Shown here: positions 52,299 to 62,072 of the stretch, in pieces
How the letters are laid out: each line of letters opens with the position of its first letter
Position numbering within the stretch: the first letter of the stretch is position 1
NCBI RefSeq assembly: GCF_008386235.1
Contig: NZ_CP040671.1
Span: forward strand, 2,048,001 to 2,112,000
DNA length: 64,000 bases
Direction: 5' to 3'
DNA from: Thermosynechococcus sp. CL-1
Lineage (GTDB): Bacteria; Cyanobacteriota; Cyanobacteriia; Thermosynechococcales; Thermosynechococcaceae
Notes under the pieces: generated by a model
What the model saw: the letters and a program-made list of their open reading frames with translations, nothing else
What the model was told of the DNA's origin: nothing
Database searches by the model: none
Translations under genes and position numbers: made by a program

Positions 52299-53312
52299 GT
52301 GCTGACGGCCGTTCTGATCATTCCAACCGGCATTGGGGCTGCCATTGGCGGCTATGCGGGTGATGCGATTCCCGTCGTTCGTGCTTTGGCTCAAGTGTGC
52401 GATCGCCTGATCACCCATCCCAACGTTCTCAATGGGGCAATGCTCTATTGGCCGCTGCCCAATGTTTGGTATGTGGAAGGCTATGCCCTTGATGAATTTG
52501 CTGTTGGCCGTTGGGGATTGCTGCCACCCCATCCCAATCGCATTGGCCTGTTACTGGATGCGGCGATTGAAGCGGATCTCCAACTGCGCCATCGTCAAGC
52601 AGCGGCGGCCTGTGCTGCCACCTTGGGTCTAATGATGACTGAACCTGTGATTACAGATGAACCCTTGGGCGTGCAGTTGCAAACCGCTGCCTCGGGGGCA
52701 ACTTGGGGGACTCTGGCGAACCCCGCTAGTTTATTGCAGGCGGCAGAAAAACTGATTCAAGAGGCCAAGGCGGAGGCGATCGCGATTGTGACCCGCTTTC
52801 CCGACGATCCCGGTACGGCAGCCTTACAGCACTATCGCAGTGGCCAAGGTGTCGATCCCCTCGCCGGGGCAGAAGCGGTCATTAGTCATTTGGTTGTCCA
52901 GCACTTTCAGATTCCGGCAGCCCATGCCCCAGCCCTGCAACCATTGCCCCTAGAGGAGACTGTACATCCCCGCGCCCTAGCTGAGGAAATTGGCTACACC
53001 TTTTTGCCCTCGGTGTTGGTGGGATTGAGTCGTGCTCCCCGCTATAGCCCAACTGCTAGGGAGGCCCTGTGGCGACAGGACGTGGATGCGGTGATTGTAC
53101 CCGCCACTGCTCTTGGTGGACGGGGAATTCTGGCCTTGGCTCAGCGGGGCGTCCCCATCCTAACGGTGACTAACAATACCACAACCCTCAATGTTACAGC
53201 TGCCGATTTGGGGATAGAGACAATCCCTTGCCAGTCCTATGCCGAGGCCATTGGCGTGTTGAGTGCGATGAAGGCAGGGGTATCTTGGCAAACGGTTACA
53301 CTGGCAACCTGA
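52299..53312 (+). CDS. DUF3326-family protein
   Basis: A 337-residue cyanobacterial and plant-type protein matching DUF3326, function unknown. It starts VLIIPTGIGAAIGGYAGDA and contains THPNVLNGAMLYWPLPN, a conserved region that may bind a ligand, and the C-terminal VPATALGGRGILALAQRGVPIL. The GTG start is one base after the protease stop, so both are probably translated from one message. The broken Rpn copy begins 14 bases after its stop. Confidence 0.85.
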   Translation: MLTAVLIIPTGIGAAIGGYAGDAIPVVRALAQVCDRLITHPNVLNGAMLYWPLPNVWYVEGYALDEFAVGRWGLLPPHPNRIGLLLDAAIEADLQLRHRQAAAACAATLGLMMTEPVITDEPLGVQLQTAASGATWGTLANPASLLQAAEKLIQEAKAEAIAIVTRFPDDPGTAALQHYRSGQGVDPLAGAEAVISHLVVQHFQIPAAHAPALQPLPLEETVHPRALAEEIGYTFLPSVLVGLSRAPRYSPTAREALWRQDVDAVIVPATALGGRGILALAQRGVPILTVTNNTTTLNVTAADLGIETIPCQSYAEAIGVLSAMKAGVSWQTVTLAT

Positions 53313-53325
53313 AAAAATTTTTGCT

Positions 53326-53723
53326 TTTATTCCCATCGCTAGGCTGAACAAGTGTCCAACCCTATGAGATGTTGGTGAAGAGCAACTACCGGCATATTGT
53401 ACAAGTTCACGGAGCTGAGTCGCGAGGAGGTGCTGCGCATGCTGGGGTTTACCACTGAGGAACTAAAGCGGACGCGGTTTTATCAAGAAGTGTATGCTGA
53501 GGCACGGGAAGAGGTATTACAGCAGGGACTGCAACAGGGATTGCAGCAGGGAGAGACCCTCGTTGTGCTGCGGCAGTTAAGGCGGCGGTTTGGCGAGTTA
53601 CCAGCTGGCCTTGAGGAGCGCATTCGCCAGCTCCCTGCTCATCAGATTGAAGCCTTGGCAGAAGCTCTCCTAGACTTCACTGACCTAGAGGAAGTTTTTG
53701 CGTGGCTAGAGCACTCCACCTAG
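53326..53723 (+). pseudogene. Truncated Rpn-family copy at the head of the array
   Basis: The first 55 bases (53326-53380) match, with changes and small gaps, the part of a full copy that encodes PHRQAEQVSFDPYEVLVN. The sequence then jumps to the part encoding LYKFTELSREEVL, so the nuclease core and an internal segment are gone. From TTG 53397 or ATG 53439 the frame is open to 53723 and encodes the intact C-terminal part: three LQQG repeats and the DUF4351 domain ending WLEHST, very like copy 1. The ATG at 53439 keeps the GAGGAGG sequence eight bases upstream. It is a pseudogene for the nuclease but may still make a 94-residue C-terminal protein. Confidence 0.85.
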
Positions 53724-53726
53724 CCC

Positions 53727-54704
53727 ATGCGCCGCGACTCCCTTTTTTATCAACTCTTTGCCCAGCTACCCCAAACCCTTTTTGATCTTTTGGGCAGAGA
53801 AGCGCCGCAGGGGTATCGCTTTGACTCCGTGGAACTCAAGCAAACGGCCTTTCGCATTGATGGCGTCTTCATGCCCCCTGACCCCTCAGGAATCGTCTAT
53901 TTCTGTGAGGTGCAGTTTCAGCGCGATAACAGCTTCTATGAACGCTTCTTTGCGGAAATCTTTCTCTATCTGCGGCTGTATCGCCACACCTTCTCTGATT
54001 GGCAAGCGGTGGTTATTTATCCCCATCGCCAAGCTGAACAAGTGTCCTTTGACCCCTATGAGGTGTTGGTGAATAGTCATCGCCTGCATCGGGTCTATTT
54101 GAATGAACTGGGGTCACTTGAGGCGTTGCCATTGAGCCTAGCGCTGATGCAGCTCACAGTGTTACCTGAAGCAGAAATGCCGACAGCAGCACGGTTGCTG
54201 GCAGAGCGCACTCGCATAGAGGCAGTGCCAAGGCCAGAAGTCATAATAGAGTTAATCACCACCATTGTGTTGTACAAGTTTACGGAGCTGAGTCGGGAGG
54301 AGGTGCTGCGCATGCTGGGGTTTACCACGGAGGAACTGAAGCGGACGCGGTTTTATCAGGAGGTGTATGCTGAGGCACGGGAAGAGGGGTTACAAGAGGG
54401 GCGAGCACAAGGGCGAGAAGAAGGACGACAGGAAGGACGACAGCAGGGGTTGCAGCAGGGATTGCAGCAGGGATTGCAGCAGGGGTTGCAGCAGGGGTTG
54501 CAGCAGGGATTACAGCAGGGATTACAGCAGGGAGAGACCCTCGTTGTGCTGCGGCAGTTAAGACGGCGGTTTGGCGAGTTACCAGCTGGCCTTGAGGAGC
54601 GCATTCGCCAGCTCCCTGCTCATCAGATTGAAGCCTTGGCAGAAGCTCTCCTAGACTTCACTGACCTAGAGGAAGTTTTTGCGTGGCTAGAGCACTCCAC
54701 CTAG
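53727..54704 (+). CDS. Rpn-family PD-(D/E)XK nuclease-like protein, array copy 1
   Basis: 325 residues. Family reading, valid for all nine copies: residues 1-125 match DUF2887, the cyanobacterial branch of the Rpn (recombination-promoting nuclease)/transposase-like PD-(D/E)XK proteins, with acidic residues in FRIDGVF (Asp45) and FCEVQFQ (Glu61, Gln63 replacing the usual Lys). Residues 170-220 are helical, followed by a Gln-rich coiled-coil-like repeat, then DUF4351 (VVLRQLRRRFGELPAGLEER). This copy has a charged insert (GRAQGREEGRQEGRQQG) before seven LQQG repeats. ATG is three bases after the stop of the broken copy; no Shine-Dalgarno precedes it, suggesting translational coupling. Internal start candidate: ATG 54312. 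Confidence 0.9.
   Translation: MRRDSLFYQLFAQLPQTLFDLLGREAPQGYRFDSVELKQTAFRIDGVFMPPDPSGIVYFCEVQFQRDNSFYERFFAEIFLYLRLYRHTFSDWQAVVIYPHRQAEQVSFDPYEVLVNSHRLHRVYLNELGSLEALPLSLALMQLTVLPEAEMPTAARLLAERTRIEAVPRPEVIIELITTIVLYKFTELSREEVLRMLGFTTEELKRTRFYQEVYAEAREEGLQEGRAQGREEGRQEGRQQGLQQGLQQGLQQGLQQGLQQGLQQGLQQGETLVVLRQLRRRFGELPAGLEERIRQLPAHQIEALAEALLDFTDLEEVFAWLEHST
54295..54314 (+). promoter_or_regulatory. Internal ribosome-binding site and start, copy 1 (same in all copies)
   Basis: GGGAGGAGG (54295-54303), complementary to the 16S rRNA tail, is followed after eight bases by an in-frame ATG at 54312 (residue 196). The equivalent ATGs are at 53439 (broken copy), 55293, 56166, 57099, 57972, 58905, 59826, 60723 and 61680. 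The upstream base varies (CGC or CGG codon) but GAGGAGG never does. Confidence 0.5.
54450..54533 (+). repeat. 12-bp minisatellite in copy 1 (7 units)
   Basis: Seven tandem 12-base units of the type TTGCAGCAGGGA, each encoding LQQG. Units vary only at synonymous positions (TTG/TTA, GGA/GGG). Confidence 0.97.
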
Positions 54705-54707
54705 CCC

Positions 54708-55577
54708 ATGCGCCGCGACTCCCTCTTTTACCAACTGTTTGCCCAGCTACCCCAAACCCTTTTTGATCTTTTGGGCAGAGAAGCGCCGCAGGGGTATCGC
54801 TTTGACTCCGTGGAACTCAAGCAAACGGCCTTTCGCATTGATGGCGTCTTCATGCCCCCTGACCCCTCAGGAACCGTCTATTTCTGTGAGGTGCAGTTTC
54901 AGCGCGATAACAGCTTCTATGAACGCTTCTTTGCGGAAATCTTTCTCTATCTGCGGCTGTATCGCCACACCTTCTCTGATTGGCAAGCGGTGGTTATTTA
55001 TCCCCATCGCCAAGCTGAACAAGTGTCCTTTGACCCCTATGAGGTGTTGGTGAATAGTCATCGCCTGCATCGGGTCTATTTGAATGAACTGGGGTCACTT
55101 GAGGCGTTGCCATTGAGCCTAGCGCTGATGCAGCTCACAGTGTTACCTGAAGCAGAAATGCCGACAGCAGCACGGTTGCTGTCAGAGCGCACTCGCATAG
55201 AGGCAGTGCCAAGGCCAGAAGTCATAATGGAGTTGATCACCACCATTGTGTTGTACAAATTCACCAAGCTGAGTCGCGAGGAGGTGCTGCGCATGCTGGG
55301 GTTTACCACTGAGGAACTAAAGCGGACGCGGTTTTATCAAGAGGTTTATGCTGAGGCGCGAGAGGATGGATTACAGCAGGGGTTGCAGCAGGGATTGCAA
55401 CAGGGAGAGACCCTTGTTGTTTTACGCCTCCTAAGACGGCGGTTTGGCGAGTTACCAGCTGGCCTTGAGGAGCGCATTCGCCAGCTCCCTGTCCATCAAA
55501 TTGAAGCCTTGGCAGAAGCTCTCTTGGACTTCACTACCCTAGAGGAAGTTTTTGCGTGGCTAGAGCACTCCACCTAG
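54708..55577 (+). CDS. Rpn-family protein, array copy 2
   Basis: 289 residues, the shortest full copy, with three LQQG repeats after EAREDG. It differs from copy 1 by T55 (SGTVYF), LLSERTRIEA, VIMELI and YKFTKLS. The nuclease-core residues Asp45, Glu61 and Gln63 are kept. It is nearly identical to copy 4; the first 150 bases differ (RFDSVEL here, RFESVEL there), while the remainder appears the same. Internal start candidate: ATG 55293. Starts three bases after the stop of copy 1. Confidence 0.9.
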   Translation: MRRDSLFYQLFAQLPQTLFDLLGREAPQGYRFDSVELKQTAFRIDGVFMPPDPSGTVYFCEVQFQRDNSFYERFFAEIFLYLRLYRHTFSDWQAVVIYPHRQAEQVSFDPYEVLVNSHRLHRVYLNELGSLEALPLSLALMQLTVLPEAEMPTAARLLSERTRIEAVPRPEVIMELITTIVLYKFTKLSREEVLRMLGFTTEELKRTRFYQEVYAEAREDGLQQGLQQGLQQGETLVVLRLLRRRFGELPAGLEERIRQLPVHQIEALAEALLDFTTLEEVFAWLEHST

Positions 55578-55580
55578 CCC

Positions 55581-56510
55581 ATGCGCCGCGACTCCCTTTT
55601 TTATCAACTCTTTGCCCAGCTGCCCCAGACCCTCTTCGACCTCTTGGGCATAGACACGCCGCAGGGGTATCGCTTTGACTCCGTGGAGCTGAAGCAAACG
55701 GCCTTTCGCATTGATGGCGTCTTCATGCCCCCTGACCCCTCAGGAATCGTCTATTTCTGTGAGGTGCAGTTTCAGCGCGATAACAGCTTCTATGAACGCT
55801 TCTTTGCGGAAATCTTTCTCTATCTGCGGCTGTATCGCCACACCTTTTCTGACTGGCAAGCGGTGGTGATTTATCCCCATCGTCAAGCAGAACAAGTGTC
55901 TTTTGACCCCTATGAGGTGTTGGTGAATAGTCATCGCCTGCATCGGGTCTATTTGAATGAACTGGGGTCACTTGAGGCGTTGCCACTGAGCCTAGCCCTG
56001 ATGCAGCTCACAGTGTTACCTGAAGCAGAAATGCCGACAGCAGCACGGTTGCTGGCAGAACGCACTCGCATAGAGGCAGTGCCAAGGCCAGAAGTCATAA
56101 TAGAGTTAATCACCACCATTGTGTTGTACAAGTTTACGGAGCTGAGTCGGGAGGAGGTGCTGCGCATGCTGGGGTTTACCACTGAGGAACTAAAGCGGAC
56201 GCGGTTTTATCGGGACGTCTATGCTGAGGTACGGGAAGAGGTCTATGCTGAGGTACGGGAAGAGGTATTACAGCAGGGATTGCAACAAGGATTGCAACAA
56301 GGATTGCAACAAGGGCTGCAACAGGGATTGCAGCAGGGAGAGACCCTCGTTGTGCTGCGTCTCCTAAGACGGCGGTTTGGCGAGTTACCAGCTGGCCTTG
56401 AGGAGCGCATTCGCCAGCTCCCTGTCCATCAAATTGAAGCCTTGGCAGAAGCTCTCTTGGACTTCACTACCCTAGAGGAAGTTTTTGCGTGGCTAGAGCA
56501 CTCCACCTAG
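55581..56510 (+). CDS. Rpn-family protein, array copy 3
   Basis: 309 residues, same protein as copy 5. Distinct in having LLGIDTPQGY instead of LLGREAPQGY, and RDVYAEVREEVYAEVREEV: an eight-residue (24-base) direct duplication before six LQQG repeats. Internal start candidate: ATG 56166. The linker after its stop is CCG rather than CCC. Confidence 0.9.
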   Translation: MRRDSLFYQLFAQLPQTLFDLLGIDTPQGYRFDSVELKQTAFRIDGVFMPPDPSGIVYFCEVQFQRDNSFYERFFAEIFLYLRLYRHTFSDWQAVVIYPHRQAEQVSFDPYEVLVNSHRLHRVYLNELGSLEALPLSLALMQLTVLPEAEMPTAARLLAERTRIEAVPRPEVIIELITTIVLYKFTELSREEVLRMLGFTTEELKRTRFYRDVYAEVREEVYAEVREEVLQQGLQQGLQQGLQQGLQQGLQQGETLVVLRLLRRRFGELPAGLEERIRQLPVHQIEALAEALLDFTTLEEVFAWLEHST

Positions 56511-56513
56511 CCG

Positions 56514-57383
56514 ATGCGCCGCGACTCCCTTTTTTATCAACTCTTTGCCCAGCTACCCCAAACCCTTTTTGATCTTTTGGGCAGAGAAGCGCCGCAGGGG
56601 TATCGTTTTGAGTCCGTGGAACTCAAGCAAACGGCCTTTCGCATTGATGGCGTCTTCATGCCCCCTGACCCCTCAGGAACCGTCTATTTCTGTGAGGTGC
56701 AGTTTCAGCGCGATAACAGCTTCTATGAACGCTTCTTTGCGGAAATCTTTCTCTATCTGCGGCTGTATCGCCACACCTTCTCTGATTGGCAAGCGGTGGT
56801 TATTTATCCCCATCGCCAAGCTGAACAAGTGTCCTTTGACCCCTATGAGGTGTTGGTGAATAGTCATCGCCTGCATCGGGTCTATTTGAATGAACTGGGG
56901 TCACTTGAGGCGTTGCCATTGAGCCTAGCGCTGATGCAGCTCACAGTGTTACCTGAAGCAGAAATGCCGACAGCAGCACGGTTGCTGTCAGAGCGCACTC
57001 GCATAGAGGCAGTGCCAAGGCCAGAAGTCATAATGGAGTTGATCACCACCATTGTGTTGTACAAATTCACCAAGCTGAGTCGCGAGGAGGTGCTGCGCAT
57101 GCTGGGGTTTACCACTGAGGAACTAAAGCGGACGCGGTTTTATCAAGAGGTTTATGCTGAGGCGCGAGAGGATGGATTACAGCAGGGGTTGCAGCAGGGA
57201 TTGCAACAGGGAGAGACCCTTGTTGTTTTACGCCTCCTAAGACGGCGGTTTGGCGAGTTACCAGCTGGCCTTGAGGAGCGCATTCGCCAGCTCCCTGTCC
57301 ATCAAATTGAAGCCTTGGCAGAAGCTCTCTTGGACTTCACTACCCTAGAGGAAGTTTTTGCGTGGCTAGAGCACTCCACCTAG
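56514..57383 (+). CDS. Rpn-family protein, array copy 4
   Basis: 289 residues, three LQQG repeats. The first about 150 bases (RFESVEL, CCG linker) match the start of copy 8, while everything after FRIDGVFMPPDPSGTV matches copy 2. This mosaic implies unequal crossing-over or gene conversion within the array. Internal start candidate: ATG 57099. Confidence 0.9.
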   Translation: MRRDSLFYQLFAQLPQTLFDLLGREAPQGYRFESVELKQTAFRIDGVFMPPDPSGTVYFCEVQFQRDNSFYERFFAEIFLYLRLYRHTFSDWQAVVIYPHRQAEQVSFDPYEVLVNSHRLHRVYLNELGSLEALPLSLALMQLTVLPEAEMPTAARLLSERTRIEAVPRPEVIMELITTIVLYKFTKLSREEVLRMLGFTTEELKRTRFYQEVYAEAREDGLQQGLQQGLQQGETLVVLRLLRRRFGELPAGLEERIRQLPVHQIEALAEALLDFTTLEEVFAWLEHST

Positions 57384-57386
57384 CCC

Positions 57387-58316
57387 ATGCGCCGCGACTC
57401 CCTTTTTTATCAACTCTTTGCCCAGCTGCCCCAGACCCTCTTCGACCTCTTGGGCATAGACACGCCGCAGGGGTATCGCTTTGACTCCGTGGAGCTGAAG
57501 CAAACGGCCTTTCGCATTGATGGCGTCTTCATGCCCCCTGACCCCTCAGGAATCGTCTATTTCTGTGAGGTGCAGTTTCAGCGCGATAACAGCTTCTATG
57601 AACGCTTCTTTGCGGAAATCTTTCTCTATCTGCGGCTGTATCGCCACACCTTTTCTGACTGGCAAGCGGTGGTGATTTATCCCCATCGTCAAGCAGAACA
57701 AGTGTCTTTTGACCCCTATGAGGTGTTGGTGAATAGTCATCGCCTGCATCGGGTCTATTTGAATGAACTGGGGTCACTTGAGGCGTTGCCACTGAGCCTA
57801 GCCCTGATGCAGCTCACAGTGTTACCTGAAGCAGAAATGCCGACAGCAGCACGGTTGCTGGCAGAACGCACTCGCATAGAGGCAGTGCCAAGGCCAGAAG
57901 TCATAATAGAGTTAATCACCACCATTGTGTTGTACAAGTTTACGGAGCTGAGTCGGGAGGAGGTGCTGCGCATGCTGGGGTTTACCACTGAGGAACTAAA
58001 GCGGACGCGGTTTTATCGGGACGTCTATGCTGAGGTACGGGAAGAGGTCTATGCTGAGGTACGGGAAGAGGTATTACAGCAGGGATTGCAACAAGGATTG
58101 CAACAAGGATTGCAACAAGGGCTGCAACAGGGATTGCAGCAGGGAGAGACCCTCGTTGTGCTGCGTCTCCTAAGACGGCGGTTTGGCGAGTTACCAGCTG
58201 GCCTTGAGGAGCGCATTCGCCAGCTCCCTGTCCATCAAATTGAAGCCTTGGCAGAAGCTCTCTTGGACTTCACTACCCTAGAGGAAGTTTTTGCGTGGCT
58301 AGAGCACTCCACCTAG
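57387..58316 (+). CDS. Rpn-family protein, array copy 5
   Basis: 309 residues; the encoded protein is the same as copy 3, 1806 bases earlier, including the IDTPQG variant, the VYAEVREE duplication and six LQQG repeats. I saw no base difference between the two in the stretches I compared. Internal start candidate: ATG 57972. Confidence 0.9.
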   Translation: MRRDSLFYQLFAQLPQTLFDLLGIDTPQGYRFDSVELKQTAFRIDGVFMPPDPSGIVYFCEVQFQRDNSFYERFFAEIFLYLRLYRHTFSDWQAVVIYPHRQAEQVSFDPYEVLVNSHRLHRVYLNELGSLEALPLSLALMQLTVLPEAEMPTAARLLAERTRIEAVPRPEVIIELITTIVLYKFTELSREEVLRMLGFTTEELKRTRFYRDVYAEVREEVYAEVREEVLQQGLQQGLQQGLQQGLQQGLQQGETLVVLRLLRRRFGELPAGLEERIRQLPVHQIEALAEALLDFTTLEEVFAWLEHST

Positions 58317-58319
58317 CCG

Positions 58320-59237
58320 ATGCGCCGCGACTCCCTTTTTTATCAACTCTTTGCCCAGCTACCCCAAACCCTTTTTGATCTTTTGGGCAGAGAAGCGCCG
58401 CAGGGGTATCGCTTTGACTCCGTGGAACTCAAGCAAACGGCCTTTCGCATGGATGGCGTCTTCGTGCCCCCTGACCCCTCGGGAATCGTCTATTTCTGTG
58501 AGGTGCAGTTTCAGCGCGATAACAGCTTCTATGAACGCTTCTTTGCGGAAATTTTTCTCTATCTGCGGCTGTATCGCCACACCTTTTCTGACTGGCAAGC
58601 GGTGGTGATTTATCCCCATCGTCAAGCAGAACAAGTGTCCTTTGACCCCTATGAGGTGTTGGTGAATAGTCATCGCCTGCATCGGGTCTATTTGAATGAA
58701 CTGGGGTCACTTGAGGCGTTGCCACTGAGCCTAGCCCTGATGCAGCTCACAGTGTTACCTGAAGCAGAAATGCCGACAGCAGCACGGTTGCTGGCAGAAC
58801 GCACTCGCATAGAGGCAGTGCCAAGGCCAGAAGTCATAATAGAGTTAATCACCACCATTGTGTTGTACAAGTTTACGGAGCTGAGTCGGGAGGAGGTGCT
58901 GCGCATGCTGGGGTTTACGACGGAAGAGTTGAAGCGGACGCGGTTTTATCGGGACGTCTATGCTGAGGTACGGGAAGAGGTCTATGCTGAGGTACGGGAA
59001 GAGGTATTGCAGCAGGGATTACAGCAGGGATTGCAACAAGGGCTGCAACAGGGATTGCAGCAGGGAGAGACCCTCGTTGTGCTGCGGCAGTTAAGGCGGC
59101 GGTTTGGCGAGTTACCAGCTGGCCTTGAGGAGCGCATTCGCCAGCTCCCTGTCCATCAAATTGAAGCCTTGGCAGAAGCTCTCTTGGACTTCACTACCCT
59201 AGAGGAAGTTTTTGCGTGGCTAGAGCACTCCACCTAG
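58320..59237 (+). CDS. Rpn-family protein, array copy 6
   Basis: 305 residues. It has FRMDGVFVPPDPSG (Met44, Val49) where other copies have Ile and Met, keeps Asp45 and the CEVQF motif, and has the VYAEVREE duplication with five LQQG repeats, so it is four residues shorter than copies 3 and 5. VVLRQLRRR resembles copy 1. Internal start candidate: ATG 58905. Confidence 0.9.
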   Translation: MRRDSLFYQLFAQLPQTLFDLLGREAPQGYRFDSVELKQTAFRMDGVFVPPDPSGIVYFCEVQFQRDNSFYERFFAEIFLYLRLYRHTFSDWQAVVIYPHRQAEQVSFDPYEVLVNSHRLHRVYLNELGSLEALPLSLALMQLTVLPEAEMPTAARLLAERTRIEAVPRPEVIIELITTIVLYKFTELSREEVLRMLGFTTEELKRTRFYRDVYAEVREEVYAEVREEVLQQGLQQGLQQGLQQGLQQGETLVVLRQLRRRFGELPAGLEERIRQLPVHQIEALAEALLDFTTLEEVFAWLEHST

Positions 59238-59240
59238 CCC

Positions 59241-60134
59241 ATGCGCCGCGACTCCCTTTTTTATCAACTCTTTGCCCAGCTACCCCAAACCCTTTTTGAT
59301 CTTTTGGGCAGAGAAGCGCCGCAGGGGTATCGCTTTGACTCCGTGGAGCTGAAGCAAACGGCCTTTCGCATGGATGGCGTCTTCATGCCCCCTGACCCCT
59401 CAGGAATCGTCTATTTCTGTGAGGTGCAGTTTCAGCGCGATAACAGCTTCTATGAACGCTTCTTTGCGGAAATCTTTCTCTATCTGCGGCTGTATCGCCA
59501 CACCTTTTCTGACTGGCAAGCGGTGGTGATTTATCCCCATCGTCAAGCAGAACAAGTGTCTTTTGACCCCTATGAGGTGTTGGTGAATAGTCATCGCCTG
59601 CATCGGGTCTATTTGAATGAACTGGGGTCACTTGAGGCGTTGCCACTGAGCCTAGCCCTGATGCAGCTCACAGTGTTACCTGAAGCAGAAATGCCGACAG
59701 CAGCGCGGTTGCTGGCAGAGCGTACTCGCACAGAGGCAGTGCCAAGGCCAGAAGTCATAATAGAGTTAATCACCACCATTGTGTTGTACAAGTTTACGGA
59801 GCTGAGTCGGGAGGAGGTGCTGCGCATGCTGGGGTTTACGACGGAAGAGTTGAAGCGGACGCGGTTTTATCGGGACGTCTATGCTGAGGTACGGGAAGAG
59901 GTATTGCAGCAGGGATTACAGCAGGGATTGCAACAAGGGCTGCAACAGGGATTGCAGCAGGGAGAGACCCTCGTTGTGCTGCGTCTCCTAAGACGGCGGT
60001 TTGGCGAGTTACCAGCTGGCCTTGAGGAGCGCATTCGCCAGCTCCCTGTCCATCAAATTGAAGCCTTGGCAGAAGCTCTCTTGGACTTCACTACCCTAGA
60101 GGAAGTTTTTGCGTGGCTAGAGCACTCCACCTAG
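59241..60134 (+). CDS. Rpn-family protein, array copy 7
   Basis: 297 residues. Like copy 6 but without the eight-residue VYAEVREE duplication; five LQQG repeats, FRMDGVFMPP and RTRTEAVPRP. The difference of exactly eight residues from copy 6 is that one duplication. Internal start candidate: ATG 59826. Confidence 0.9.
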   Translation: MRRDSLFYQLFAQLPQTLFDLLGREAPQGYRFDSVELKQTAFRMDGVFMPPDPSGIVYFCEVQFQRDNSFYERFFAEIFLYLRLYRHTFSDWQAVVIYPHRQAEQVSFDPYEVLVNSHRLHRVYLNELGSLEALPLSLALMQLTVLPEAEMPTAARLLAERTRTEAVPRPEVIIELITTIVLYKFTELSREEVLRMLGFTTEELKRTRFYRDVYAEVREEVLQQGLQQGLQQGLQQGLQQGETLVVLRLLRRRFGELPAGLEERIRQLPVHQIEALAEALLDFTTLEEVFAWLEHST

Positions 60135-60137
60135 CCG

Positions 60138-61091
60138 ATGCGCCGCGACTCCCTTTTTTATCAACTCTTTGCCCAGCTACCCCAAACCCTTTTTGATCTT
60201 TTGGGCAGAGAAGCGCCGCAGGGGTATCGTTTTGAGTCCGTGGAACTCAAGCAAACGGCCTTTCGCATGGATGGCGTCTTCGTGCCCCCTGACCCCTCGG
60301 GAATCGTCTATTTCTGTGAGGTGCAGTTTCAGCGCGATAACAGCTTCTATGAACGCTTCTTTGCGGAAATCTTTCTCTATCTGCGGCTGTATCGCCACAC
60401 CTTTTCTGACTGGCAAGCGGTGGTGATTTATCCCCATCGTCAAGCAGAACAAGTGTCCTTTGACCCCTATGAGGTGTTGGTGAATAGTCATCGCCTGCAT
60501 CGGGTCTATTTGAATGAACTGGGGTCACTTGAGGCGTTGCCACTGAGCCTAGCGCTGATGCAGCTCACAGTGTTACCTGAAGCAGAAATGCCGACAGCAG
60601 CGCGGTTGCTGGCAGAGCGTACTCGCACAGAGGCAGTGCCAAGGCCAGAAGTCATAATAGAGTTAATCACCACCATTGTGTTGTACAAGTTTACGGAGCT
60701 GAGTCGGGAGGAGGTGCTGCGCATGCTGGGGTTTACCACTGAGGAACTGAAGCGGACGCGGTTTTATCAGGAGGTGTATGCTGAGGCACGGGAAGAGGGG
60801 TTACAAGAGGGGCGAGCACAAGGGCGAGAAGAAGGACGACAGGAAGGACGACAGCAGGGGTTGCAGCAGGGATTGCAGCAGGGATTGCAGCAGGGATTAC
60901 AGCAGGGATTACAACAGGGAGAGACCCTTGTTGTTTTACGCCTCCTAAGACGGCGGTTTGGCGAGTTACCAGCTGGCCTTGAGGAGCGCATTCGCCAGCT
61001 CCCTGTCTATCAAATTGAAGCCTTGGCAGAGGCTCTCCTGGACTTCACTACCCTAGAGGAAGTTTTTGCATGGCTAGAGCACTCCACCTAG
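60138..61091 (+). CDS. Rpn-family protein, array copy 8
   Basis: 317 residues. It combines RFESVEL and FRMDGVFVPP with the charged insert (GRAQGREEGRQEGRQQG) otherwise seen only in copy 1, then five LQQG repeats and VVLRLLRRR; LPVYQIEA has Tyr where others have His. It therefore looks like a recombinant of two copy types. Internal start candidate: ATG 60723. Confidence 0.9.
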   Translation: MRRDSLFYQLFAQLPQTLFDLLGREAPQGYRFESVELKQTAFRMDGVFVPPDPSGIVYFCEVQFQRDNSFYERFFAEIFLYLRLYRHTFSDWQAVVIYPHRQAEQVSFDPYEVLVNSHRLHRVYLNELGSLEALPLSLALMQLTVLPEAEMPTAARLLAERTRTEAVPRPEVIIELITTIVLYKFTELSREEVLRMLGFTTEELKRTRFYQEVYAEAREEGLQEGRAQGREEGRQEGRQQGLQQGLQQGLQQGLQQGLQQGETLVVLRLLRRRFGELPAGLEERIRQLPVYQIEALAEALLDFTTLEEVFAWLEHST

Positions 61092-61094
61092 CCC

Positions 61095-62072
61095 ATGCGC
61101 CGCGACTCCCTCTTTTACCAACTCTTTGCCCAGCTACCCCAAACCCTTTTTGACCTTTTGGGCAGAGAAGCGCCGCAGGGGTATCGTTTTGAGTCCGTGG
61201 AACTCAAGCAAACGGCCTTTCGCATAGATGGCGTCTTCATGCCCCCTGACCCCTCAGGAATCGTCTATTTCTGTGAGGTGCAGTTTCAGCGCGATAACAG
61301 CTTCTATGAACGCTTCTTTGCGGAAATCTTTCTCTATCTGCGGCTGTATCGCCACACCTTTTCTGACTGGCAAGCGGTGGTGATTTATCCCCATCGTCAA
61401 GCAGAACAAGTGTCCTTTGACCCCTATGAGGTGTTGGTGAATAGTCATCGCCTGCATCGGGTCTATTTGAATGAACTCGGTTCACTTGAGGGGTTGCCAT
61501 TGAGCCTAGCGCTGATGCAACTCACAGTGTTACCTGAAGCAGAGATGCCGACAGTAGCACGGTTGCTGGCAGAGCGCACTCGCACAGAGGCAGTGCCAAG
61601 GCCAGAAGTCATAATAGAGTTAATCACCACCATTGTGTTGTACAAGTTTACGGAGCTGAGTCGGGAGGAGGTGCTGCGCATGCTGGGGTTTACCACGGAA
61701 GAGTTGAAGCGGACGCGGTTTTATCGGGACGTCTATGCTGAGGTACGGGAAGAGGTCTATGCTGAGGTACGGGAAGAGGTATTGCAGCAGGGATTACAGG
61801 AGGGATTGCAGCAGGGATTACAGGAGGGATTGCAGCAGGGATTGCAGCAAGGATTACAGCAGGGATTACAGCAAGGATTACAGCAGGGATTACAGCAGGG
61901 AGAGGCCCTCGTTGTGTTGCGGCAGTTAAGGCGGCGGTTTGGCGAGTTACCAGCTGGCCTTGAGGAGCGCATTCGCCAGCTCCCTGTCCATGAGATTGAA
62001 GCCTTGGCAGAGGCTCTTCTGGACTTCACTGACCTAGAGGAAGTTTTTGCATGGCTAAATCGCTCTTCCTAG
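61095..62072 (+). CDS. Rpn-family protein, array copy 9 (last)
   Basis: 325 residues and the most diverged copy: LEGLPLSLAL, MPTVARLL, LQQGEALVV, LPVHEIEA and a different C-terminus (AWLNRSS instead of AWLEHST). It has the VYAEVREE duplication and the longest repeat, ten units, two of which encode LQEG. Diverged outer copies are expected when the inner ones are kept alike by recombination. Internal start candidate: ATG 61680. The downstream 208 bases are not repeated. Confidence 0.9.
   Translation: MRRDSLFYQLFAQLPQTLFDLLGREAPQGYRFESVELKQTAFRIDGVFMPPDPSGIVYFCEVQFQRDNSFYERFFAEIFLYLRLYRHTFSDWQAVVIYPHRQAEQVSFDPYEVLVNSHRLHRVYLNELGSLEGLPLSLALMQLTVLPEAEMPTVARLLAERTRTEAVPRPEVIIELITTIVLYKFTELSREEVLRMLGFTTEELKRTRFYRDVYAEVREEVYAEVREEVLQQGLQEGLQQGLQEGLQQGLQQGLQQGLQQGLQQGLQQGEALVVLRQLRRRFGELPAGLEERIRQLPVHEIEALAEALLDFTDLEEVFAWLNRSS
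61782..61901 (+). repeat. 12-bp minisatellite in copy 9 (10 units)
   Basis: Ten tandem 12-base units (TTGCAGCAGGGA type); units 2 and 4 read CAGGAG, giving LQEG. Counts by DNA in the other copies: broken copy 3, copy 2 three, copy 3 six, copy 4 three, copy 5 six, copies 6, 7 and 8 five each. Confidence 0.97.

Follow-up and report, generated by a model that had tools for sequence, protein, structure and literature searches.

A 5'-deleted first copy in the tandem rpn array of Thermosynechococcus sp. CL-1 retains a putative RpnS-type antitoxin cistron

The window analyzed here, a stretch of 64,000 nucleotides from the Thermosynechococcus sp. CL-1 genome (NZ_CP040671.1, positions 2,048,001 to 2,112,000), carries an array of ten near-identical tandem rpn copies on the forward strand. 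The first copy in the row (53326-53723, referred to as the lead) is broken, and nine intact units follow it (53727-62072). The features of the locus are as follows (positions within the window):

52299-53312, + strand: DUF3326 gene (Pfam PF11805), 5' neighbor of the lead and anchor of the locus in 11/11 genomes of the genus
53326-53382, + strand: decayed piece that matches rpn codons 97-116 of the next copy apart from 6 mismatches and a 4-base gap
53397-53438, + strand: kept rpn codons 182-195, 5' of the internal start (alignment to the next copy)
53425-53432, + strand: AGGAGGTG, Shine-Dalgarno site of the internal start; 6 bases separate it from the ATG at 53439 (energy -14.9 kcal/mol)
53439-53723, + strand: RpnS-type cistron of the lead, with 94 codons for a helix, three tetrapeptide repeats, and DUF4351, up to the stop
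53727-54704, + strand: rpn unit 2, intact, 325 aa; starts 3 bases after the lead stop, with hardly any Shine-Dalgarno match at its start
54708-55577, + strand: rpn unit 3, intact, 289 aa; RpnS length 94, equal to the lead
55581-56510, + strand: rpn unit 4, intact, 309 aa
56514-57383, + strand: rpn unit 5, intact, 289 aa; almost the same sequence as unit 3, with an RpnS length of 94
57387-58316, + strand: rpn unit 6, intact, 309 aa
58320-59237, + strand: rpn unit 7, intact, 305 aa
59241-60134, + strand: rpn unit 8, intact, 297 aa
60138-61091, + strand: rpn unit 9, intact, 317 aa
61095-62072, + strand: rpn unit 10, intact, 325 aa

Alignment to the next copy bore out an earlier note, made from the letters of this DNA alone, that the first unit had lost its nuclease core by deletion and had a decayed 5' part. 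The remnant at 53326-53382 matched codons 97-116 of the next copy with a local score of 76 (best of 2000 shuffles, 30), and contained a TGA (53376-53378) in the lead's own frame. No match to the rpn copy was found in 53383-53396, and homology resumed at 53397, corresponding to codon 182. Codons 1-96 and 117-181 are missing from the lead, including D45, E61, and Q63, and its nuclease core is thus gone; these three residues, which we take to be the core from the PD-(D/E)XK pattern, were invariant in 9 sequences, and E61 was nearly invariant in 34. On the other hand, the frame was open from 53379 through the stop at 53721-53723. The same note was also correct in describing an intact C-terminal frame with an internal ribosome-binding site and ATG (53439): AGGAGGTG and 94 open codons are present, with a DUF4351 (PF14261) match of 81.5 bits (cut-off 25).

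The array is the one previously described as tandem RPN genes for Thermosynechococcus CL-1 and TA-1 (PMC7005997, PMC9403480). The passages of these two papers that concern the arrays mention neither a leading fragment nor internal starts or antitoxins. The CL-1 genome paper gives nine, four, and one RPN genes, with which our counts agreed, and its passage on them does not mention a fragment at the lead position (PMC7005997). Units 3+4 and 5+6 (54708-58316) form a nearly identical duplication of 1.8 kb, presumably recent. A further rpn remnant, decayed but with its N-terminal part, lies at another place in the CL-1 genome (G000:C1:1626929-1627387).

The three full units scanned all matched DUF2887 and DUF4351 far above the cut-offs, and also TIGR01784 (Rpn family recombination-promoting nuclease) with 78.7-92.6 bits (cut-off 52.1); the latter indicates an N-terminal PD-(D/E)XK-type nuclease domain, which the lead itself lacks. 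The small variable C-terminal domain (DUF4351) was found in the lead as well as in these three units. Each of the nine intact units has its own internal start. The number of residues from the internal Met ranged between 86 and 158 in steps of four, as expected from a four-residue repeat, with a single frame-changed exception (G007b; 125). A family call by PADLOC was not accepted: its sole weak match was PDLC01084 'putative invertase' (E values of 4e-4 for unit 3 and 1.5e-4 for the lead).

In E. coli, an internal start within rpn yields a small C-terminal antitoxin, RpnS, and the repeats are variable (PMC10327210); in the open-access literature, this was the mechanism paper found (Zhong et al. 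2023). The sections of that paper on RpnL/RpnS describe the same combination of a nuclease gene, internal start, small C-terminal protein, and variable four-residue repeats as that observed here, while the present genes belong to the cyanobacterial DUF2887 branch, and their repeats begin about 24-27 residues past the internal Met, in contrast to 8-20 in PMC10327210. As a separate RpnS-domain frame without a nuclease, adjoining an rpn gene, the lead resembles ypaA (rpnES) of E. coli in the account of PMC10327210. ypaA, however, is a downstream second copy with a detected protein in that account, whereas the lead is upstream and arose by 5' loss. Searches of the open-access literature for DUF4351, DUF2887, Rpn/RpnS antitoxins, and internal translation found no report of a cyanobacterial RpnS.

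The model of the 94-residue lead protein (mean pLDDT 87) consisted of one long helix (residues 13-51), which spans the four-residue repeats, and four short ones. A fold search with this model gave no RpnS match, PDB 7TH0 not being among the matches, and no significant sequence match was found in PDB. The model of the full unit (mean pLDDT 85) resembled restriction-endonuclease-like proteins, such as EndoMS (Foldseek probability 1.0, with a weak E value of 0.08).

Since the Shine-Dalgarno match in CL-1 alone is within the chance given by synonymous codons (P about 0.11; 0.07-0.12 over the lead and two units), the case for the internal start rests on a family-wide test. Among the best 80 of at least 542 relatives (80 cyanobacterial loci), the aligned internal Met was present in 80/80. 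In the same best 80 of at least 542, the energy of the internal Shine-Dalgarno site was -9.9 kcal/mol, versus -4.6 kcal/mol for a synonymous null with 400 draws per gene (Wilcoxon p 9e-15); sequences are related by descent, by which these p values overstate independence. The direction was the same in 66 of 68 distinct upstream sequences. In a position scan with 60 draws per position, codons 195-198 were the four strongest among 214 aligned positions in Shine-Dalgarno excess over the null (codon 196: z -8.3, -5.1; best position more than six codons off: -2.3), and the 241 other in-frame Met residues of the family-wide scan gave no Shine-Dalgarno effect. A weaker Shine-Dalgarno-like excess was observed at aligned codons 64-67, where there is no Met (-2.1 to -2.3; 80 DUF2887 genes, L114-L193). 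Within the genus, GAG GAG GTG before the internal ATG was invariant in 34/34 units, a set that omits units without 585 bases upstream, the last unit of BP-1 (8-codon deletion), the lead of G007, and G007b. Synonymous constraint in sliding windows within the genus was not significant (3658 of 5000 permutations reached the observed minimum).

The full-length starts differed markedly from the internal ones. Among 80 full-length frames from 76 loci, the long start was located in 78 frames; the mean energy at this start was -0.9, and values of -6 or below were found in 9/78, versus 75/78 for internal starts; the internal site was the stronger in 77/78. The mean for 375 control frames in the same loci (open frames from the first ATG, as distinct from annotated genes) was -2.6. 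A weak toxin start together with a strong internal start is what one would expect if the toxin is translated weakly and the internal antitoxin strongly, an arrangement demonstrated for Rpn in E. coli (PMC10327210). Because the Met is conserved, the Shine-Dalgarno match is far beyond synonymous chance, and the full-length start is weak, the internal antitoxin (RpnS) cistron in cyanobacterial DUF2887 rpn genes is very likely real.

The locus after the DUF3326 gene was compared in 11 Thermosynechococcus genomes. NK55, BP-1, and a third genome (G007) also have a lead with the C-terminal part only, starting at approximately codon 134 directly behind the DUF3326 stop; the left junction is common to these three and differs from that of CL-1. 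The first unit of another genome (G006) lacks its first 20 residues, and that of SCTE542 is intact. The other five genomes gave no rpn match in the stretch examined, two of these stretches ending at contig ends. The two left junctions, the 20-residue loss, and the intact first unit look like erosion to varying depth. An eroded unit tail before the first unit of SCTE542 was considered and rejected, a similar stretch preceding first units at other loci. Frameshifts in close relatives, which the earlier note had named as the observation that would speak against its idea, did not appear: the frame was intact in all three other genomes with a C-only lead, and in 4/4 including CL-1.

A C-only lead was also found in a different family (G067), as a 166-codon frame that precedes its rpn unit. 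Compared with intact units in a related genome (G025), its dN/dS was 0.22-0.28, close to the 0.18-0.19 of an intact nuclease part there. The second unit of G067 is broken, with a dN/dS of 0.41-0.48 in its C-terminal part, partly due to unmatched ends.

RpnS-like frames were found without a nuclease part elsewhere in cyanobacteria. Rhizonema has a stand-alone frame downstream of an rpn gene, and two further genomes (G038 and G020; L095 and L096) each have a complete rpn gene with a different type of N-terminus and, behind it, two stand-alone frames that begin where the internal Met would be, preceded by AGGAG; one of the two frames in each keeps a longer stretch upstream of the internal start. 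Solitary, open C-only frames occur in G073 and G117 (L097, L110, and L112), with no intact copy in the 2.5-2.8 kb examined. In L110, a stop interrupts the frame immediately 5' of the RpnS part, which is itself open. A dN/dS of 0.13 at dS 0.89 between two solitary frames from different genera suggests selection, although this value includes time spent as full genes; most pairs had saturated dS and were set aside. Two adjoining stand-alone DUF4351 frames of 75 and 100 codons at L110:1028-1611 differ at their N-terminal ends, and no nuclease gene separates them; this may be an antitoxin-only spot. Three tandem genes of another rpn type were also noted (L111; G030:C1:529500-534000): of these, the third alone has a complete frame, those of the first two beginning within the gene, and the repeat tracts get shorter from the first gene to the last.

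By eye, C-only fragments appeared to be kept more often than N-only fragments, and this impression was rejected on reading 80 related loci: one clear solitary C-only frame (the Rhizonema frame, L149) stood beside one clear N-only frame (L158) and another N-only frame (L141) lying 53 bases short of the end of its contig. This reading disregarded partial domains, frameshift pairs, frames located at the end of a contig, and frames in which DUF4351 follows a different N-terminus. Phage-borne RpnS as a counter-defence was also rejected, since none of 58 pattern matches in viral contigs was confirmed and no relative was found in phage records.

Why the lead frame is intact may be explained by exchange between copies, because each lead is closest to the units of its own genome. 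In the post-repeat stretch of five first units, the nearest relative was a unit of the same genome, with 0-10 differences per 171 bases, against 17-24 for other genomes. In NK55, G007, and BP-1, the lead was no less clean in the stretch 5' of the internal start than elsewhere (differences from units of the same genome at 2 to 8 of 138 bases), and an RpnS protein would not need this stretch. Codon changes private to the leads, 17 over the four genomes, are too few to separate selection from homogenization: 5 were upstream of the internal start (2 nonsynonymous and 3 synonymous; CL-1 is not assessable there) and 12 downstream (7 and 5, respectively). Eleven of the 17 came from NK55, with one comparator, and none from G007; the sole private codon of CL-1 was scored as nonsynonymous on a tie and could be synonymous. 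As a control, private changes in non-lead units were 27 nonsynonymous and 40 synonymous upstream, and 34 and 40 downstream. The topology of an array may itself keep the left edge, in that the left junction would be preserved whenever the lead exchanges sequence with a copy further downstream.

The length of the lead is less easily accommodated. All four C-only leads and the first unit of G006 (5/5) have 94 residues from the internal Met, compared with 2 of 22 other units (Fisher p 3e-4, for arrays related by descent). This constancy runs against simple homogenization, which does not predict it; short repeat tracts may slip less. Since units of 86 residues exist, 94 is not a floor of length. 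The repeat tract of the first unit was the shortest or tied in all eight Thermosynechococcus arrays, namely that at 53397-62072 in the window and L067, L068, L071, L072, L075, L076, and L081 (permutation p 5e-5, again for arrays related by descent). As a general rule, this was rejected: in 11 other tandem sets, partly scored by hand and leaving out the mixed set G141:C139, 6 had a first tract shorter than the second, 3 had a longer one, and 2 were tied or unclear.

These observations are best explained, with a probability of roughly 0.6, by an eroded array edge that holds a translatable RpnS cistron, the frame of which is homogenized by its neighbors. The lead is what a 5' deletion has left of the first unit in a tandem rpn array of the RpnL/RpnS toxin-antitoxin type, and its putative internal antitoxin cistron survives whole: Shine-Dalgarno site, ATG, and the 94-codon helix-repeat-DUF4351 frame. 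An RpnS-like protein is probably translated from it. Recombination with intact neighbors would homogenize the lead and mainly account for its clean frame, and the lead would represent the edge of the array, as opposed to a gene under selection of its own. Of the two readings offered in the earlier note, the eroded edge fits better than an antidote for the whole array, with the addition that the edge still holds a translatable RpnS cistron.

Among the alternatives, the lead may be a ribosome-loading leader, in which the strong internal site recruits ribosomes; after termination, 3 bases ahead of unit 2, these would start again on that unit, whose own start has almost no such site. In that case, the start, frame, and stop of the lead would be under selection irrespective of the function of its protein. 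The array units with a located start (the long start was not located by pattern for units of G006, G000b, G006b, G007b, and G004b) have nearly no Shine-Dalgarno match there (-1.9 to +1.0 kcal/mol, versus about -15 kcal/mol at internal starts), and the stop-to-start gaps are short and constant: 3 bases in CL-1 and also from unit to unit in SCTE542, and 7 in NK55, G007, and BP-1, the gap after the lead being equal to that between units wherever both exist. The G067 lead likewise ends 13 bases before the next start, the same as between G025 units. However, single genes also have little Shine-Dalgarno match at their full-length starts, such that these starts may simply be weak, and identical gaps are also predicted by exchange between copies. 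We regard this leader function as improbable. A more elaborate form, which we consider somewhat more doubtful still, is that the lead governs the array's first toxin and is kept for priming a relay, in which ribosomes loaded at the near-perfect Shine-Dalgarno site of each antitoxin cistron reinitiate on the next toxin start, where such a site is almost absent, and that its constant short repeat avoids the pairing of the others; if so, antitoxin synthesis would be obligatory before toxin synthesis.

In E. coli, the specificity of RpnS is determined by the number of repeats, and one added repeat abolishes neutralization in RpnC, according to the sections of PMC10327210 on neutralization. Under this rule, the lead product could restrain units 3 and 5 only, and not the whole array. 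It is conceivable that the lead is retained to counteract these length-matched units as their antitoxin, or is a leftover whose loss would free the matched toxin: the match is exact, the lead is 94% identical to unit 3 over all but the first four residues, and lead length is constant. In NK55, G007, and BP-1, however, no other array unit has the length of 94, and length matching cannot account for the constancy there; we rate this reading as unlikely, slightly below the leader.

A selected stand-alone antitoxin protecting against every unit of the array, as the earlier note had proposed, is very improbable: separate DUF4351 RpnS genes have a published precedent in E. coli (PMC10327210, in its part on ypaA), the elements needed for translation are present, the frame is intact in all four C-only leads of the genus, and stand-alone RpnS-like frames recur in other cyanobacteria, but the lead matches only 2 of 9 CL-1 units in repeat length and no other unit in NK55, G007, and BP-1, a single added repeat abolishes neutralization in RpnC, the nine intact units each have their own internal start, a consensus scan found no sigma-70-like promoter ahead of the lead, and exchange, with the upstream stretch equally preserved in three genomes, can account for the intact frame. 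What stands of the antidote idea is its precedent, in that internal RpnS and separate DUF4351 RpnS genes are both described in the relevant sections of PMC10327210; the role of covering the whole array is unlikely.

Overall, the lead is a truncated copy at the edge of its array, and the predicted RpnS cistron in it, of a known kind, is complete. When copies exchange sequence, an intact frame in a fragment of a tandem array is poor evidence of function. The lead and the nine units of differing repeat length offer a natural set for testing repeat number against toxin-antitoxin pairing. For the family, the idea of a gene-within-gene antitoxin may be extended from E. coli to the cyanobacterial DUF2887 branch by a test on sequence that requires no experiment: codon choice favors the internal Shine-Dalgarno site, and such a match is weak or absent at the toxin start.
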